A stretch of 32,624 nucleotides of DNA from an uncultured Rhodospirillales bacterium (GTDB lineage Bacteria > Pseudomonadota > Alphaproteobacteria > Azospirillales > Azospirillaceae): NCBI GenBank assembly GCA_903920145.1, contig CAIXKV010000128.1, positions 1 through 32,624 on the forward strand, read 5' to 3'. Below are positions 1,880 to 30,009 of the stretch, one piece after another (position 1 is the stretch's first letter; the number at the start of each line of letters is the position of its first letter). The position numbers and the translations under genes were made by a program. The notes beneath the pieces are model-generated. The model saw only the letters and a list, made by a program, of their open reading frames with translations, did no database searches and had not been told where the DNA came from.

Positions 1880-4717
1880 ATGCTGGCTTTGGGTCCGATC
1901 GCTTTTGCCGTGCCCTGGGTGCTGGGCGCCGTGCTGTTGTTGCCGGTGGTGTGGTGGCTGTTGCGCCTGACGCCGCCAGCTCCTCGGCGGGTGCGGTTTC
2001 CGGCGGTGCGTCTGTTGCACGGGTTGATCGCGCGGGAGGAAACGCCGGCGCACACGCCGCCTTGGTTGCTGTTGCTGCGGCTGATCATCGGGGCCTTGGT
2101 GATCGTGGCGCTGGCCGAGCCGGTGCTCCATTCCGATGCGCCCTTGCCGGGTACCGGGCCGATCTTGCTGGTGATCGACAATGGGTGGAGCGCCGCTCGC
2201 GATTGGCCGGCCCGTCAACAGATGATGGCCGATGTGCTGACCAGGGCCGAGCGTCAGAGCCGTTTGGTGGTGGTCGCCGCCACCGCGCCGATGGCGGCGC
2301 CCGGAAACGGCAGTGACCAGGGACGTGACCAGGGAGGGGCAAAGCCGCAGGTGATCGGGCCGATGGCGGTTGCCGAGGCCCGGCGGCTGGTGCAGGGATT
2401 GGAGCCGCAGCCTTGGCCCGAGGATCGGGCGGCGACACTGGCCGCCCTGAAGACGATGCGGCTGAGGGGTACGATTTCTTCCGTGTGGTTGAGCAATGGT
2501 CTGGAGGATAACGGAGCGGCCCCGCTGGTCGATTTTTTGAACCGATTGGGCGGTTTACGCGTGGCGGTGCCAGAGCCATTGCCGGATCTGCTGCGGCCTC
2601 CGGTGATCGAAGGAGAGGCTCTGACGGCGCGTCTGATTCGGGCGGCCCCAGGGCCGGAACGGGCGGTGGCGGTGCAGCTCTCGGCGGGAGATGGCCGCCC
2701 CCTAGCCGAAGAGACCGCCACTTTTGCCGCCAACGTCACAACGGCCTCGGTACGTTTCACCCTGCCGTTGGAGTTGCGCAATCAAGCCGCAAGGATCAGT
2801 CTTCAAGGGCAGGCGACGGTTGCGGCAACGGTGCTGCTGGATGAGCGGTGGCGGCGGAAGCCGGTGGGTTTGGTGACGGGCCGTCAGGGCGACGAGTCCC
2901 AGCCCTTGTTGAGTGATTTTTACTACCTAGACCGGGCCTTGGCGCCCACCAGCGAAATTCGGCGCGGCAGTCTTTCGGAGCTGTTGGCCGAATCCGTTTC
3001 GGTGCTGATCCTGCCTGATATCAAGGTGCTGGACGGTGACGAGGCCCGGATGCTAGGCGCATGGGTGGCTCATGGCGGCCTATTGCTGCGCTTTGCCGGG
3101 CCGCATCTGGCCCATGATCCTGATTCTCTTCTGCCGGTGCGGCTTCGGGCCGGAGACCGAGCCTTAGGCGGGGCGCTGTCTTGGTCCAAGCCGCTGCCGT
3201 TGGCGCCTTTCGATCCGGGCTCGCCCTTTGCCGGTTTGACTCTGCCGGCGGATGTCACCGTCGAGCGTCAGGTGTTGGCCGAGCCCACCGTCGATCTGGG
3301 CGATCATACCTGGGCACGCTTAAGCGACGGCACGCCCCTGGTGACGGCGGCCCGGCGCGGCCAGGGCTCCATCGTGCTGGTCCACACCACCGCCGGTCCC
3401 GATTGGTCCAATTTGGCGCTGTCGGGGCTGTTTGTGGACATGCTGCGGCGGGTGGTGGCGCTGGGAACCGGGCTTGACGGTGGCGGGCAGAGTCAGGCGT
3501 TGGCGCCACTGGCTCCCTTGACCCTGTTAGATGGGTTGGGGCGGTTGGGTGAACCGCCAGCGACCGCACTGCCGATCTTGGCGAATGCCTTTGCCGGGAC
3601 GCGGGTTGGGCCAGACCACCCGCCGGGCTTTTACGGTGTAACCGAAACCCGCCGCGCTTTGAATCTAACCGCCAGCCTTGAGTCCCTGGCACCGCTGGCG
3701 TTGCCGTCGTTCGGTGTGACCGTCACCGGCTATGCTCTAACCGGCGAGCAGGCCTTGAAGCCGGTGTTGTTGATGGCGGCTTTCGTTTTGGGGCTGTTGG
3801 ATCTGGGGGTGGCTTTGGCGCTACGCGGTCTTCTGATCCCGGCGGCCTATGGCAACGACCCATCGCCAACCTCTGACCACGACGGCGGCCGCGTGTTCTC
3901 GTGGACGCGAAGCCAAGGGCGCGGACGCGCCGGGAGACTCCGGGGGCTGTGGTTGCTGGCGGGGTTGTCATTATCGTTGCTGTTGCCGTTGTCGTTCGTT
4001 CCGGCGTGGGCAGCGGCGGATGACGAGGCCGCCGGGCGGGCCACCGCCAAAACTTGGCTGGCATATGTGGTGACCGGCGATGCAGGCCTGGATCAGACCA
4101 GCCGGGCCGGTCTCGAGGGGTTGTCGCGGGTGCTGATCCGGCGGACTTCGGTGGATGTTGGCGGCGTAGCGGCGGTCTCCCCGGAAACCGACGAGCTGGC
4201 GTTTTTTCCGCTGCTTTATTGGCCGGTGCCGGCGGCTCCGGTCGGGTTGTCAGAGGCGGCTCGCCGCCGGATCAATGACTATCTGCATCATGGCGGCACC
4301 ATTCTGTTCGACAGTCGGGATGACCAGGGCATGGGGGCTCCGGCGCTACGGGCGGTGACGGCGGGGTTGGATTTACCCCCCCTGACGCCGCTACCCTCAA
4401 ATCACGTCCTGACCCGCTCGTTCTATCTGCTCCAGGACTTTCCCGGACGCACCGACGGCGGCGACGTCTGGGTTGAGGCACGGGAGGATCGGCGGTTGGA
4501 TGGCGTATCGTCGGTGATCGTTGGCGAGAATGACTGGGCTGCGGCCTGGGCGGTGGATGCACAGGGGCAACCTTTGTATGCCACGGTTCCCGGCGGCGAG
4601 ACTCAACGCGAAATGGCCTATCGTTTTGGTGTCAATTTGGTGATGTACGCCCTGACTGGCAATTACAAAGCCGATCAGGTTCATGTGCCAGCGATTTTGC
4701 GAAGGATCGGGCAATGA
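1880..4717 (+). CDS. DUF4159 membrane protein with N-terminal BatA-like region
   Basis: A 945-residue inner-membrane protein. Hydrophobic segments lie near residues 8-28 and 60-80 (BatA-like N-terminus). They are followed by a degenerate von Willebrand A-like region with DNGWS where a DxSxS metal site would be, and then a long periplasmic-type region. Further hydrophobic segments are at about 632-661 and 689-712. The DUF4159 domain (about 718-935, with LLYWPVP and [10 protein letters not shown]) forms the C-terminus. Proteins of this type usually sit with a MoxR ATPase and a DUF58 protein; the molecular role is unknown and is guessed to be envelope-related. The stop overlaps the next ATG (ATGA at 4714-4717), so translation is probably coupled. 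Oddity: residues about 667-684 come from a copy of the dispersed repeat. GTG at 1875 is out of frame, so ATG 1880 is preferred. Confidence 0.88.
3880..3931 (+). repeat. In-frame intragenic copy of the dispersed repeat
   Basis: This part of the DUF4159 coding sequence aligns with the spacer, H1 and start of the core of the repeat family, including GGACGCGAAGCCAAGGGCGC. H1 here is CGTGTTC/GGACGCG, which pairs with two G-U wobbles in RNA. H2 is GGGCGC-GGAC-GCGCC, nearly complete. It encodes roughly [18 protein letters not shown], in the loop between two hydrophobic segments. The H3 and H4 modules of the full element are absent. Confidence 0.8.
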
Positions 4718-6804
4718 CCACGCTGGCTTTGACTCCGTTGTTGCCCTGGCCGATGTTGGCGCCGGTCCTGGTTCTGGCTTTGGTGCTGGTGGGATATGCC
4801 TTTTTTCGTCGGTCGCGGGGGGCTTGGTGGCGACTGGCCGGATTTTCTATGCTGGCCCTGGCGTTGGCCAACCCGTCGATGGTTTCGGAAAAGCGCGCAC
4901 CGATTCGGGATGTCGCGACCGTGGTGGTGGACCAGTCCCCCAGTCAGGCGCTGGGGGACCGTACCGCCCGCACCGAGCGGGCTTTGGCGGAGTTGCGGAC
5001 CAAGCTGGGGGCGCTGCCTGATCTCGATCTGCGGGTGGTGCGGGTCGGCGGGCTGGGAGATGGTTCTGGGGCGGGAGCCGTCACCGAAACCCGGTTGTTC
5101 GAGGCGTTGGATCGGGCGGTGGCCGATGTGCCGCCGGGCCGTCGGGCCGGAGCGATTCTGATCACTGACGGTCAGGTTCATGACATTCCCACCGATCCCA
5201 AGGCGGCTTTGGCCTATGGCCCGGTTCACACTCTGTTGAGCGGCGATCATGACGAGGCCGATCGGCGGTTGGAGATCGTCGAGGCGCCGTCCTTCGGTTT
5301 GGTTGGCAAGTCGGTGACGCTAACCTATCGGGTTGACGACCAACCCAAACCGCAATCGGCCATGGCGCTCGTGACGGTGCGTCAGGACGGTGGGCCGCCA
5401 CGCCGGTTGGCGGTTCCGGTTGGGCGCGACGTGACTTTGGACGTGGCGTTGTCCCATGCGGGCCAAAATGTGCTCGAGCTGTCGGTGGAGCCGGCCCAAC
5501 GGGAACTGACTTTGGCGAACAACCGGGCCGGGGTGGTGATCAATGCGGTGCGGGACCGCTTGAGGGTGCTGCTGGTTTCGGGCGAGCCCTACACCGGGGA
5601 GCGGACTTGGCGCAACATCCTGAAAGCCGATCCGGCGGTGGATCTGGTGCATTTCACCATTCTGCGTCCTCCAGAAAAGCAGGATGCCACACCGATTCGT
5701 GAATTGGCGTTGATTGCCTTTCCGATCCGGGAGCTGTTTGAGATCAAGCTGGCCGAGTTCGATTTGGTGATTTTTGACCGCTATCGCCAACGTGGCGTGC
5801 TGCCGCCTGCCTATCTCGACAACATCGCCCACTATGTCGATAACGGCGGCGCATTGCTCGAGGCCGGCGGTTTCGGCTTGGGCACGTCGTTGGGACTGCC
5901 GGGGACTGCGCTTGGCGATGTGCTGCCGGGTGAGCCGTCGGGGAGGGTGATTGACCAACCCTTCAAACCCACCGTCACACCTTTGGGTCGGCGTCATCCG
6001 GTGACCGCCGGTCTTCCCGGCGATGATCAGGCTGGTGGGCCGCCGGCTTGGGGCCGGTGGTTGCACCAGACCGAATTGACGGCGGTGCGTGGGACCGTGG
6101 TGATGACCGGCGCCCAGGAGAGGCCTTTGCTGATTTTGGACCGCGTTGGCAAGGGGCGGGTGGCGCAATTGGCTTCGGATCAGATTTGGCTGTGGTCTCG
6201 TGGCTTTGAAGGTGGCGGTCCCCAGGCCGAATTGCTGCGCCGACTGGCCCACTGGCTGATGAAAGAGCCTGAGTTGGAGGAAAATGATCTGCGGGCCTCG
6301 GTCGAAGGCAATCGGATCACCATTGAGCGCCGGAGTTTGCAGGAGGAGACCCGGCCCGTGCAGTGGGTTTCGCCTTCGGACGAAACGCAGACGGTGACGT
6401 TAAAGAGCGACGGAGCGGGCGCCGCGCGGGCCGTGGTGGCGGCCCCTGAACCCGGTCTGTATCGTCTTTCGGATGGCGAGCATCAAGCGGTGGCGTTGGT
6501 TGGGGGCGTCGATGTGCCGGAATTGGATGACATGCGCACCACGCCGGATCGGCTGGCTGGCATTGCGCGGGCAACCGGAGGCGGCATTTTGTGGCTGGCT
6601 GACCTGGATCATCAAGCGGGCGGTTTGGTGGTTCGCCGCTCGCGCCCGGATCGGAACGCGTCTGGGCCGGGGTGGATCGGGTTGCGGGCCAACGGAGCCT
6701 CGGTGCTGGTCGGCGTCACCGACACGCCGCTATTGCCGTCGGTCCTGGTGCTGATCTTGGCGCTGGGGGCCTTCCTGGCGGCTTGGCGGCGCGAGGGGAC
6801 TTGA
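4714..6804 (+). CDS. GATase/VWA-like membrane protein paired with DUF4159
   Basis: A 696-residue protein with two N-terminal membrane segments (about 10-27 and 37-54) and a C-terminal one (about 672-690). A VWA-like region starts near residue 66 with VVVDQSPSQ, which fits the DxSxS metal-site pattern, and reaches AGAILITDGQVHD near 150. A glutamine-amidotransferase-like fold follows (about 280-500: RVLLVSGEPYTGERTW, FDLVIFDRY, NGGALLEAGG). I see no clear catalytic Cys-His-Glu triad, so it is probably a non-enzymatic domain. Its ATG overlaps the upstream stop by four bases, so the two genes form an operon. The biochemical role is unknown. A terminator-like hairpin lies downstream at 6974-6992. 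Confidence 0.85.
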   Translation: MTTLALTPLLPWPMLAPVLVLALVLVGYAFFRRSRGAWWRLAGFSMLALALANPSMVSEKRAPIRDVATVVVDQSPSQALGDRTARTERALAELRTKLGALPDLDLRVVRVGGLGDGSGAGAVTETRLFEALDRAVADVPPGRRAGAILITDGQVHDIPTDPKAALAYGPVHTLLSGDHDEADRRLEIVEAPSFGLVGKSVTLTYRVDDQPKPQSAMALVTVRQDGGPPRRLAVPVGRDVTLDVALSHAGQNVLELSVEPAQRELTLANNRAGVVINAVRDRLRVLLVSGEPYTGERTWRNILKADPAVDLVHFTILRPPEKQDATPIRELALIAFPIRELFEIKLAEFDLVIFDRYRQRGVLPPAYLDNIAHYVDNGGALLEAGGFGLGTSLGLPGTALGDVLPGEPSGRVIDQPFKPTVTPLGRRHPVTAGLPGDDQAGGPPAWGRWLHQTELTAVRGTVVMTGAQERPLLILDRVGKGRVAQLASDQIWLWSRGFEGGGPQAELLRRLAHWLMKEPELEENDLRASVEGNRITIERRSLQEETRPVQWVSPSDETQTVTLKSDGAGAARAVVAAPEPGLYRLSDGEHQAVALVGGVDVPELDDMRTTPDRLAGIARATGGGILWLADLDHQAGGLVVRRSRPDRNASGPGWIGLRANGASVLVGVTDTPLLPSVLVLILALGAFLAAWRREGT

Positions 6805-6863
6805 GACCGGCGAAGCCGTGACAACGGACTTGCCGCCGGCCCTTGGGCTGCGCCCTGCACCCG

Positions 6864-6912
6864 CAAGGAAGCATAGCCTCCTTGACCTCAAGACGTTACG
6901 GAAGAAACGTCA
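6864..6912 (+). repeat. Two-hairpin repeat B, copy 1
   Basis: Stem CAAGGA (6864-6869) and TCCTTG (6879-6884) around a 9-nt loop, then stem GACGTT/AACGTC around an 8-nt loop. A second 49-nt copy at 10906-10954 matches 37 of the last 42 positions and keeps both stems. It lies between convergent genes. It is followed at 6919-6940 by a perfect 9-bp hairpin (CAAAGGGCC/GGCCCTTTG) and at 6946-6960 by GTGGGC-AGA-GCCCAC. Confidence 0.7.
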
Positions 6913-7453: not shown

Positions 7454-7890
7454 GGGACTGGTTCTCCTTGGCTATACTCTGGGTGATCATCGAGAGTGTG
7501 TGCGCCGCATGGGGCTTGAGACTTGAAGCGTAGAGCCCGGAGCGGTCGGCTTGGGCGACTGTCACCGTGGTTCAGGCTAAAGCGAGGCCATTGTAACACA
7601 AATGCAGCCATGTCGGGTGTCGGCGGTGGGGTGGGCGGGACGCGTGCCGGACGCAGATGACGCTGTAGGCATTCCTGCCATAATCCGAGGCCCAGCGGGA
7701 AGCCTTTGGTTATGTGTTTATTTCTTGCCGTGCGAATCCTCTGCATTTAGGGCCGGGCGGTCGGTGCGGCGTGGCCTCGCGGCACGCCGATACCATTCTG
7801 ATCCCGTTTTGCCGCGCGGCTTTGGGGCCCGGCACCGGGGCCCGGACTGTCGACTCGGAGACATCAGGGCGTTCGGTGTTGCGCATGGGG
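7454..7890. other. Gene-free interval between the CBS and TerC genes
   Basis: 437 bp with no reading frame that has protein-like composition or a credible ribosome binding site. A GC-rich palindromic stretch near 7825-7845 (GGGGCCC repeated) may form a hairpin beyond the end of the TerC-family gene. The leader of the CBS gene occupies the left part. I see no RNA gene or repeat copy here. Confidence 0.5.
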
Positions 7891-8538: not shown

Positions 8539-8654
8539 ATCGCAAAGGTCGCCCTGAAGGCGATCACAGCCCGGCCATCATAACCAACCCCTGATCATGA
8601 CGCCACCTTGACGCTGGCCGGACGACCGGCGACAAGACGGGCTCGCGATGGCGG

Positions 8655-8750
8655 CTCCGCGCGCCCATGCGCGCGAAGCCAAGGGCGCGGATGCGCCCGC
8701 CCGGCGTCTGAGGGCCGCTTTAATGTGTCAACATTAAAGCTTAATGATGT
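8655..8750 (+). repeat. Multi-hairpin dispersed repeat, one copy
   Basis: Core at 8672-8709, preceded by an H1 variant (CGCGC...GCGCG) and followed by an H3 module at 8710-8750. The H3 stem here is GCTTTAATG (8717-8725)/CATTAAAGC (8732-8740), where other copies have GCCTTGATG/CATCAAGGC. Two positions changed on both arms, so pairing is preserved. It fills the space between the TerC-family and yqhA-like genes and ends about 10 nt before the latter. Confidence 0.85.
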
Positions 8751-8766
8751 GAGGGGATGAGTGGTG

Positions 8767-9291: not shown

Positions 9292-9312
9292 GACCGGCCA
9301 GCCCTAACAATG

Positions 9313-9502
9313 ATACCATCGGGCCTTGATGGTGACTCATCAAGGCCGCCCTCATACCATCGAGCCTTGATGTTGACTTATCAAGGCTGCCCTCAGACGC
9401 CGGGCGGGCGCATCCGCGCCCTTGGCTTCGCGTCCACGAGGACGCGGGGCCGCCGTCGCGGCCCGATACCGGCAGTGTGTCATCGTTATAGCTCGCCGGG
9501 AT
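9313..9502 (-). repeat. Multi-hairpin dispersed repeat, inverted copy with two H3 units
   Basis: On the + strand: two tandem 41-bp H3 units (9313-9353 and 9354-9394, each with a 9-bp stem from GCCTTGATG-type arms), the inverted core (9395-9432), H1 (CGCGTCC/GGACGCG), a GC spacer, and an H4-like stem starting ATACCGGC at 9466. The right arm of H4 reads GCCGGGAT instead of GCCGGTAT. The element ends about 10 nt before the start codon of the SLC13-type gene, so it supplies that gene's leader. Confidence 0.85.
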
Positions 9503-9511
9503 GAGATCTCC

Positions 9512-10885: not shown

Positions 10886-10905
10886 GGGCAAGAAAGGCAA
10901 GAGGG

Positions 10906-10954
10906 CAAGGACGCATAGCCTCCTTGCCCTCAAGACGTTATGGGGAAAACGTCA
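10906..10954 (+). repeat. Two-hairpin repeat B, copy 2
   Basis: Second copy of the element at 6864-6912. The first stem is extended here to a perfect 11 bp (GAGGGCAAGGA 10901-10911 with TCCTTGCCCTC 10921-10931) around the same CGCATAGCC-like loop. The GACGTT/AACGTC stem is also kept. It lies between convergent genes, 20 nt after the SLC13-type stop and 12 nt before the guaB stop, so it may serve as a transcript end for both. Confidence 0.7.
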
Positions 10955-26846: not shown

Positions 26847-27053
26847 ATATACCACCATCGCGCCTTGATGGGCCTCGAGCCTTGATGAGACGCCCCCTCC
26901 CTCATACCACCGAGCCTTGATGGTGACACATCAAGGCTGCCCTCAGACGCCGGGCGGGCGCATCCGCGCCCTTGGCTTCGCGTCCACGAGGACGCGGGGC
27001 CGTCGTCGCGGCCCGATACCGGCAGTGTGTCATCGTTATAGCTCGCCGGTATC
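26847..27053 (-). repeat. Multi-hairpin dispersed repeat, inverted copy
   Basis: Decayed H3-like pieces at 26847-26903, then an intact H3 unit (26904-26944, 10-bp stem AGCCTTGATG/CATCAAGGCT), the core (26945-26982), H1 (CGCGTCC/GGACGCG), a GC spacer, and H4 (ATACCGGC 27016-27023 with GCCGGTAT 27045-27052). It is nearly identical over about 100 bp to the copy at 9354-9502. It lies between livF and the convergent EamA gene and abuts the latter's stop codon. Confidence 0.88.
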
Positions 27054-27936
27054 ACCGACTCCCCCGCCGGGCTACGACGATTCCCGCCGCAACGACGCTT
27101 GCGCCGAGGGCCTGCCACGGCCCCAGAGCTTCCCCCAAGGTCACCCAGGCCAACAGCGCGGCAGTGGCAGGTTGCATCAATAAACTCACCGAACCAAAGG
27201 CCGCCGGCAGATGGGCCAGAGCATAAGTGATCAGGCTTTGGCCAATGGCTTGGCTGAACACCCCGAGCCCGATCAGCATCCACCACCCCCAGCCTGTGGT
27301 GGCCAGCAGCCGCTCGCCTGTGCCCACCGCGATGACCAAGAGTGCTAGAGTGGCGGCAACGCCGCTCCACGTCATGATGGTCGCGGTGGAGAAGCGTTGA
27401 CGCAAACGCCCTACAGCCAGAATATAACCGGCATAGAACTGGGCACTGGCCAGGGCCAAACCATCCCCCGCCGAGTGTCCGGGCTCAAATGAAAAGGATG
27501 CGCCGATCAACACCACAGCCCCGGCCAGCGCCAACACCAAGCCTGTTAAAAATGTGAGGGTAAAGCGGTCGCGAAACAGTAACCAGCCGTAAAGAGTCAC
27601 AAAAATCGGCGCAAAATTACATAATAAGGTGCTATTAGCCACCGAAGTCCAGTTCAACGACCAGTGCCACAATGATAAATCCACGGCGAAACAGAGGCCA
27701 GGCACGGAAAGATCAAGGAAATCCCGCAAAGACGACGGGCGACGCTGATCGGGACAGCACCGCCGCTCGACCAGCAACCACGCCACCAGCACCGGCAACG
27801 CCAAGGCCAACCGCCAAAAAGCCGAGGCCACCGGCCCCAGCTCTCCCAACCGGAAGAAGATCGGCGCAAAGCCGATGGCAGCGCCTCCGGTCAATAATGC
27901 GATTAGGGCAAAGCGTGCCCGGCGAACAGTGGCCAT
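27052..27936 (-). CDS. EamA/DMT-superfamily transporter
   Basis: A 294-residue inner-membrane protein with about 10 hydrophobic segments in two EamA halves (about 10-140 and 152-290). Typical features are FAPIFFRLGELGPVASAFWRL in the first half and a VSLLMQPATAALLAWVTLGE segment near the end of the second. Members export amino acids, nucleosides or other metabolites; the substrate cannot be assigned. Start ATG 27936; the upstream region contains no clear Shine-Dalgarno. The final codons touch the H4 arm of the adjacent repeat, so the repeat has probably inserted right at or into the original 3' end. Confidence 0.9.
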   Translation of the reverse strand: MATVRRARFALIALLTGGAAIGFAPIFFRLGELGPVASAFWRLALALPVLVAWLLVERRCCPDQRRPSSLRDFLDLSVPGLCFAVDLSLWHWSLNWTSVANSTLLCNFAPIFVTLYGWLLFRDRFTLTFLTGLVLALAGAVVLIGASFSFEPGHSAGDGLALASAQFYAGYILAVGRLRQRFSTATIMTWSGVAATLALLVIAVGTGERLLATTGWGWWMLIGLGVFSQAIGQSLITYALAHLPAAFGSVSLLMQPATAALLAWVTLGEALGPWQALGASVVAAGIVVARRGSR

Positions 27937-29761: not shown

Positions 29762-29787
29762 GTTTGTCTATAGGGAAAACGCCAGGG

Positions 29788-30009
29788 GCTCATACCGGCG
29801 AGCCCTGATACTGACACATCGCCGGTATCATATGAACAGTAGTCCCCCCATTTCATCGGCATTTTGGGGCATACTTTTTTTGCATTCCCCCTCTCGGCAG
29901 ACTCATATCTGTCATGGACGTCGCAAGCCACCCCCCATTGGGTAAACAAGACACTGACCACCGCAACGATCGCAAGAGTCAACATCACAATTAGCTTGAA
30001 TTTTATCAA
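29788..30009 (-). pseudogene. Possible small secreted-protein gene interrupted by a repeat
   Basis: A reading frame from TTG 30009 (or ATG 29985) encodes a hydrophobic N-terminus (IVMLTLAIVAVVSVLFTQ) followed by a short Cys-containing, secreted-looking stretch of about 35 residues. From about 29829 the frame is the H4 repeat, and beyond it runs antisense to merR (to 29587) with no protein character. I read this as a small gene whose 3' end was replaced by the repeat, or a chance frame. There is no Shine-Dalgarno. The end given here is where protein-like sequence and repeat stop, not a stop codon. Confidence 0.3.
29792..29829 (+). repeat. Isolated H4 module of the dispersed repeat
   Basis: Stem ATACCGGCG (29792-29800)/CGCCGGTAT (29820-29828) around a 19-nt loop. 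The 38 bases are identical to the H4 module at 32497-32534. It shows that H4 occurs without the core. It lies 30 nt after merR and inside the 3' part of a small opposite-strand reading frame. Confidence 0.8.

Follow-up and report, generated by a model that had tools for sequence, protein, structure and literature searches.

A MITE copy read in frame within a DUF4159 membrane protein gene of an uncultured Azospirillaceae bacterium

Results

The window analyzed here, 32,624 nucleotides long, is the entire contig C128 of a draft genome (G000; 4.26 Mb, 269 contigs, completeness 99%), which we compared with four congeneric genomes (G001 to G004). Genes were called from hexamer scores and open frames, without annotation. 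Positions 1880 to 4717 of the forward strand encode a BatA/DUF4159 membrane protein of 945 amino acids, recognized by its open reading frame, by Pfam matches (BatA N-terminal, residues 7 to 81; DUF4159 C-terminal, residues 727 to 925) and by homologues in the four congeners. Within this gene, positions 3828 to 3931 match a profile built from the genome's own copies of a dispersed repeat (68.9 bits, E 2e-19 over 1.56 Mb), and the ORF continues uninterrupted across the repeat copy. The core of the repeat, GCGAAGCCAAGGGCGCGGAYGCGCC (allowing ≤2 mismatches), is present at 474 places in the draft genome, and its reversed control at none. The original prediction of an in-frame repeat copy in an unbroken DUF4159 gene was thus confirmed.

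The copy proper is a degenerate element at 3837 to 3931 (forward strand), corresponding to element positions 1 to 95 of 147, read in frame +0 and spanning residues 652 to 684, as delimited by the nhmmer match and alignment. It is preceded at 3834 to 3836 (forward strand) by the left target-site copy TGA, a TNA target with its T at codon position 2 (CTG|A), assigned from the TNA flanks of complete copies and the aligned copy start. Counting the A contributed by the target, the copy codes for 32 residues. Element positions 96 to 147 (the 3′ 52 nt) and the right target copy are missing. The segment had originally been placed at 3880 to 3931 (residues 667 to 684); its end was correct, and its start lay too far downstream, so that only the second half had been noted. 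Apart from the full extent of the copy, the earlier description had also overlooked the TNA target duplication and the frame-keeping length of 147 + 3 = 150 nt.

The identity of the copy to others of its family is about 78 to 81%, reaching ∼81% with the best copy in the genome and 80% with a copy in G003, and one 55-nt stretch is 93% identical to other copies. Since it is only ∼80 to 81% identical to its best relatives, it must be older than the many near-identical copies. Its substitutions by codon position amount to 5/10/6 (first/second/third), and with no third-position excess the encoded peptide shows no trace of purifying selection.

Alignment of homologues bore out the prediction that the insertion is lineage specific and lies between membrane segments. 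The loop at the insertion site has 37 residues in the host and 8 to 18 in the G001, G003, and G004 proteins, and none of the four congeneric homologues (0/4) carries the element residues. The G002 homologue has its own unrelated LRGLLGR expansion at that loop, which therefore tolerates changes in length. An AlphaFold model of the host protein (8 sequences), which places a coil (649 to 682) between two helices (623 to 648 and 683 to 700), was poor (mean pLDDT of 42) and was set aside as evidence. The homologue in G003 shows a frame change at a run of ∼10 C (L014, about 2439 to 2471), which is either a sequencing error or a real frameshift.

At the RNA level, the H1 stem of the element can still form in the DUF4159 copy, with 3892 to 3898 pairing with 3903 to 3909 (forward strand; RNA fold) in 7 pairs that include two G-U wobbles, as had been predicted. 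The accompanying suggestion that RNA structure might also be kept did not hold. While the consensus of the intact element contains several hairpins and folds far better than its shuffles (z of −5.2), the upstream hairpins of the DUF4159 copy are decayed and its fold is no better than that of shuffled sequences (z of +1.6 for 98 nt and −0.2 for the 52 nt initially considered). Preservation of RNA structure in this copy was therefore rejected.

A profile search with the genome's own copies located further members of the family in the window. Two adjoining copies lie near the contig start (21 to 293, forward strand; intergenic, upstream of the next ORF) and two at the contig end (32381 to 32624, forward strand). 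Between them are the 3′ two thirds of a copy (8643 to 8758, forward strand; intergenic), a complete copy with an adjoining 3′ fragment (9307 to 9511, reverse strand), another complete copy (26899 to 27058, reverse strand) and a 5′ fragment (29784 to 29829, forward strand). Many other contigs of the draft likewise start or end inside the repeat (e.g., C1, C2, C45, C59, and C164), which is probably a main cause of the fragmented assembly. The window also holds a second, unrelated repeat of 50 nt with small inverted repeats, present at 6863 to 6912 and 10905 to 10954 (88% identical, both intergenic). An Rfam search of the window matched no family.

Genome-wide, the modal complete unit is 147 bp long. 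Its termini, read from the copies, are imperfect inverted repeats of ∼28 bp, TACCGGCGAGCCCTGATACTGACACATC and TACCATCGAGCCTTGATGGTGACTCATC, and one profile made from the two ends retrieves each of them. TNA is present on both flanks in 103 of 121 complete copies, with the same N on either side in 79 of these 103 (2000 shuffles gave a mean of 33 and a maximum of 47). This 3-bp TNA target duplication identifies the element as a MITE, i.e., as non-autonomous. It also has terminal inverted repeats and is a short unit without a transposase gene, whose peptides have no Pfam match. Judged from its sequence, the element represents a new MITE family among the protein-coding ones, independent of those known and unrelated to RPE1 in peptide sequence. 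We found no previous account of it in the literature searched, which took in few subscription journals.

At the level of the bacterial family, the element was detected in 45 of 82 genomes and 8 of 13 genera. Outside its own genus, the matches listed mostly hit the central module (positions about 39 to 112), and among the matches listed those reaching the outermost ends came almost only from its own genus, chiefly G000 and G003. These match ranges suggest that the MITE probably carries an older, family-wide repeat as cargo. Plasmid matches to the repeat core indicate that the wider family is that of Azospirillum and Niveispirillum; a plasmid search with the 50-amino-acid peptide gave no match. 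The core also occurs near the end of the viral contig IMGVR_UViG_3300030041_000875 (L186, 9214 to 9240), which may be host DNA.

As to the mobilizing enzyme, the IS1031 group of the IS5 family uses a TNA target with a 3-bp duplication (PMC12016507). The MITE follows the same rule, which suggests a transposase of the IS5/IS1031-like type. Any partner IS would be expected to carry the end sequence of the element, TACCNNCGAGCCNTGATNNTGACNCATC, and no IS with matching ends was found in G000. The five DDE_Tnp_1 loci of the genome are devoid of MITE ends, DUF4096 is absent from it, and its one DDE_Tnp_1_2 match is degraded and belongs to no element with MITE ends. In the 1.56-Mb sample, no inverted pair of terminal repeats 0.5 to 3.5 kb apart was recognized around a transposase. 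The best such pair, C216:13110 to 14406, was rejected as an IS, being two MITEs that flank a gene. A degraded fragment of an IS5-family transposase lies at about 7930 to 8130 of C161, without MITE-like ends.

A complete insertion adds 147 + 3 = 150 nt, or 50 codons, and because this is a multiple of 3 the reading frame survives. Four frames of the consensus (+0, +1, −0, and −1) are free of stops, each of them being open in 58 to 62 of 79 complete copies, while frames +2 and −2 are almost never open among them. Which frame is read depends on the phase of the target: xTN|A leads to frame +0, xxT|NA to stops, and a TNA codon to frame +1. The ORFs of G000 contain 28,400, 26,763, and 6,147 sites of these three kinds, respectively. 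Because xTN|A sites outnumber TNA codons, frame +0, which encodes a hydrophilic, Pro/Ser/Gly/Arg-rich peptide of 50 amino acids, is expected to dominate among usable insertions, and it does. The same numbers (28,400 versus 6,147) led us to reject frame preference as proof of selection on the peptide. The CTG|A phase of the DUF4159 copy is the commonest among its siblings, from which its 150-nt geometry has to be deduced because its own right end and right target copy are gone.

We counted a copy as in-gene if an ORF ran through it in frame and showed coding signal to its left and right. In the 1.56-Mb sample, 13 of the 239 element clusters with enough flank (5%) satisfied this definition, compared to 1625 of 3340 random positions (49%); copies are thus depleted in genes. 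A further 0.6 Mb yielded 8 more in-frame copies, giving 21 in about 2.2 Mb, and this batch was left out of the rate since it had been chosen partly for matches in long frames. Along the lines of the peptide scan proposed earlier, the same peptide family thus turned up in frame at about 20 further sites within ORFs in these about 2.2 Mb.

Six in-gene copies could be reduced to their empty sites, in genes for an FeS protein, a DUF4175 protein, NRPS (two copies), and two TPR/glycosyltransferase proteins. All six have identical duplications, inserts of 150, 150, 150, 132, 150, and 150 nt, and flanks that join into a continuous protein. Since in-frame reading had guided the choice of these copies, insert lengths divisible by 3 carry no independent weight, unlike the duplications and the recurrence of 150. 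The DUF4175 protein contains a 50-residue insert, and its closest congeneric homologues (G001 and G003) align to residues 1 to 360 and then from residue 410 onwards. The homologues in G002 and G004 are likewise without the element peptide, so that 4/4 relatives lack the insert. Both NRPS empty sites retain the remnant of an older copy, indicating that newer elements inserted at the TNA terminus of earlier copies. Mis-joining is possible for some copies, since draft contigs often end in the repeat, but the presence of the same protein on both sides argues against it for the six reconstructed ones.

In-gene copies reside in unrelated host genes, in loops, at domain junctions, or, in one case, beside the phosphoacceptor of a receiver domain. 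In this last gene (L217, 11365 to 11537, on C243), a complete MITE is in frame in the receiver domain of a response regulator, directly after the apparent phosphoacceptor motif (VIADIHL|...|DGIEF), and may well disable the domain. In L174 (12579 to 12645, on C215), a 5′ element fragment lies exactly at the junction of TsaE and phosphotransferase (APH) domains within one ORF, possibly reflecting a gene fusion through the repeat. An antisense copy in L100 (13090 to 13240, on C216) is read in frame and forms the beginning of an ORF; the part downstream of it starts with IHVRCGDDC and looks DUF1835-like by eye; removal of the copy would join AKTPEL to IHVRC. In L112, on C59, in-frame pieces lie at 5854 to 5970 and 7799 to 7850, in a type VI secretion IcmF/TssM-like gene and a DotU/OmpA gene, and the piece in the former represents the form without the central module.

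In-gene and remaining copies did not differ in codon-position pattern (chi-square p 0.29) or in mean divergence, so in-gene copies, once inserted, seem to drift. With no third-position excess in the DUF4159 copy or in the other in-gene copies, selection on the peptide was rejected. A difference was apparent in orientation: the sense-to-antisense ratio was 16:1 in genes for matches above 30 bits (17:4 for all matches) and about 58:41 outside genes, where in-gene copies had been subtracted by hand (Fisher p 0.005). Plain tolerance of open frames does not predict this bias, since open frames are about as frequent on the antisense strand. Two explanations offer themselves: proteins may tolerate the sense peptide better, or antisense copies may do harm of another sort. 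We regard as rather unlikely the further idea that the MITE has been shaped for life in genes by a whole-codon length with duplication, open frames, and a tolerated sense peptide. If true, it would be a gene-adapted MITE whose sense +0 insertions outlive antisense ones, seeding 50-residue linkers across the proteome.

Discussion

Taken together, we consider it very probable that the segment in the DUF4159 gene is an old, 3′-deleted copy of a lineage-specific MITE, carried as a passenger in a tolerant loop. A transposase acting in trans would have inserted the complete 147-bp unit at a TNA in the loop that separates two membrane segments, duplicating the 3-bp target, such that the complete insertion would amount to 150 nt, or 50 codons. 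Given the open frames and the mostly xTN|A usable sites, it would be read through as a hydrophilic peptide, and the insert is predicted to be translated as part of the host protein. Selection would remove most insertions into genes, and those in tolerant loops would persist as passengers, decaying by point mutation and in-frame deletion as the DUF4159 copy would have done. The host protein probably tolerates the insert, and the insert probably has no function of its own.

It is improbable, in our judgment, that the insert is instead a functional, selected peptide, exapted as a linker in DUF4159 and the other hosts. Such a role would fit the retention of the frame despite about 20% divergence from other copies and the strong sense bias of in-gene copies (16:1 versus about 58:41), but neither this copy (5/10/6) nor the other in-gene copies show a clustering of substitutions at third positions. 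Moreover, four relatives do without the segment, and the hosts are unrelated, with insertions in loops, at domain junctions, and even beside the receiver-domain phosphoacceptor. We give still less credence to its being kept as an RNA or DNA structure (a terminator, or processing or protein-binding hairpins) rather than as coding sequence. The intact element is indeed highly structured (z of −5.2), and H1 still pairs through two G-U wobbles. These wobbles nevertheless reflect C-to-T changes, a very common kind of mutation, the decayed upstream hairpins leave the copy no better folded than its shuffles (z of +1.6 and −0.2), and a terminator within an ORF would be harmful. The least likely explanation is chance similarity or a low-complexity, GC-rich loop without any insertion; all congeners vary in this loop, and G002 has expanded a repeat of its own there, but such an explanation is contradicted by the profile E value of 2e-19, by the 55-nt stretch with 93% identity to other copies, and by a start that coincides with a TNA site and shares its phase with most siblings.

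A MITE-derived passenger of this kind has partial counterparts in other bacteria. The enterobacterial RU-1/ERIC, RU-2, and RU-3 repeats (Delihas 2007, PMC2759123) are also MITE-like, with open frames fused in frame to genes; by their description they differ in length and ends from the present MITE with its 3-bp TNA duplication and ∼28-bp terminal inverted repeats. QMITE1 and QMITE2 of Coxiella burnetii (PMC5896051) are structured MITEs that are sometimes in frame in ORFs, and QMITE2 has terminal inverted repeats of 23 to 29 bp, but their direct repeats measure 7 to 9 bp rather than 3 bp and their host is unrelated. The IS1031 group (IS5) shares the 3-bp TNA duplication, and the MITE may derive from it; neither a transposase nor matching IS ends were found in G000.

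The best-known palindromic elements of the protein-coding type are those of Rickettsia. These Rickettsia palindromic elements (RPE) are repeats of ∼150 bp that lie within various unrelated genes without breaking the reading frame (Ogata et al. 2000, 2002; reviewed in PMC10969869), with lengths of 105 to 146 bp and a target duplication listed as unknown (PMC2229807). The resemblance to them that was originally proposed is a good analogy in kind. In both cases, a palindromic repeat of alphaproteobacterial hosts occupies intergenic positions as well as in-frame positions within unrelated genes (here 21 copies, six resolved to empty sites), and the peptides of the copies are conserved. It does not extend to sequence, as hmmscan of three peptide frames against NCBIfam (including RPE1, TIGR01045) and of two against Pfam gave no match, and a TIGR01045 search of the genome, run without a positive control, was empty. 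The MITE further differs from RPE in its demonstrated target duplication, in its hundreds of copies, only 5% of which are in genes compared to nearly half of RPE, and in its host, a member of an Azospirillum-type family and not an intracellular bacterium. It thus appears to work like an RPE, as an analogue rather than a demonstrated member. For annotation, this means that a 50-residue peptide common to unrelated proteins can stem from a transposon. Since one genome holds hundreds of copies, about 20 of them in frame and of differing age, new, nested, and decaying fates can be traced. Finally, in this MITE the ends, the duplication, and the empty sites are all visible and offer a simple account of how the reading frame is kept, through the 147 + 3 length, the mostly xTN|A usable sites, and the open frames.
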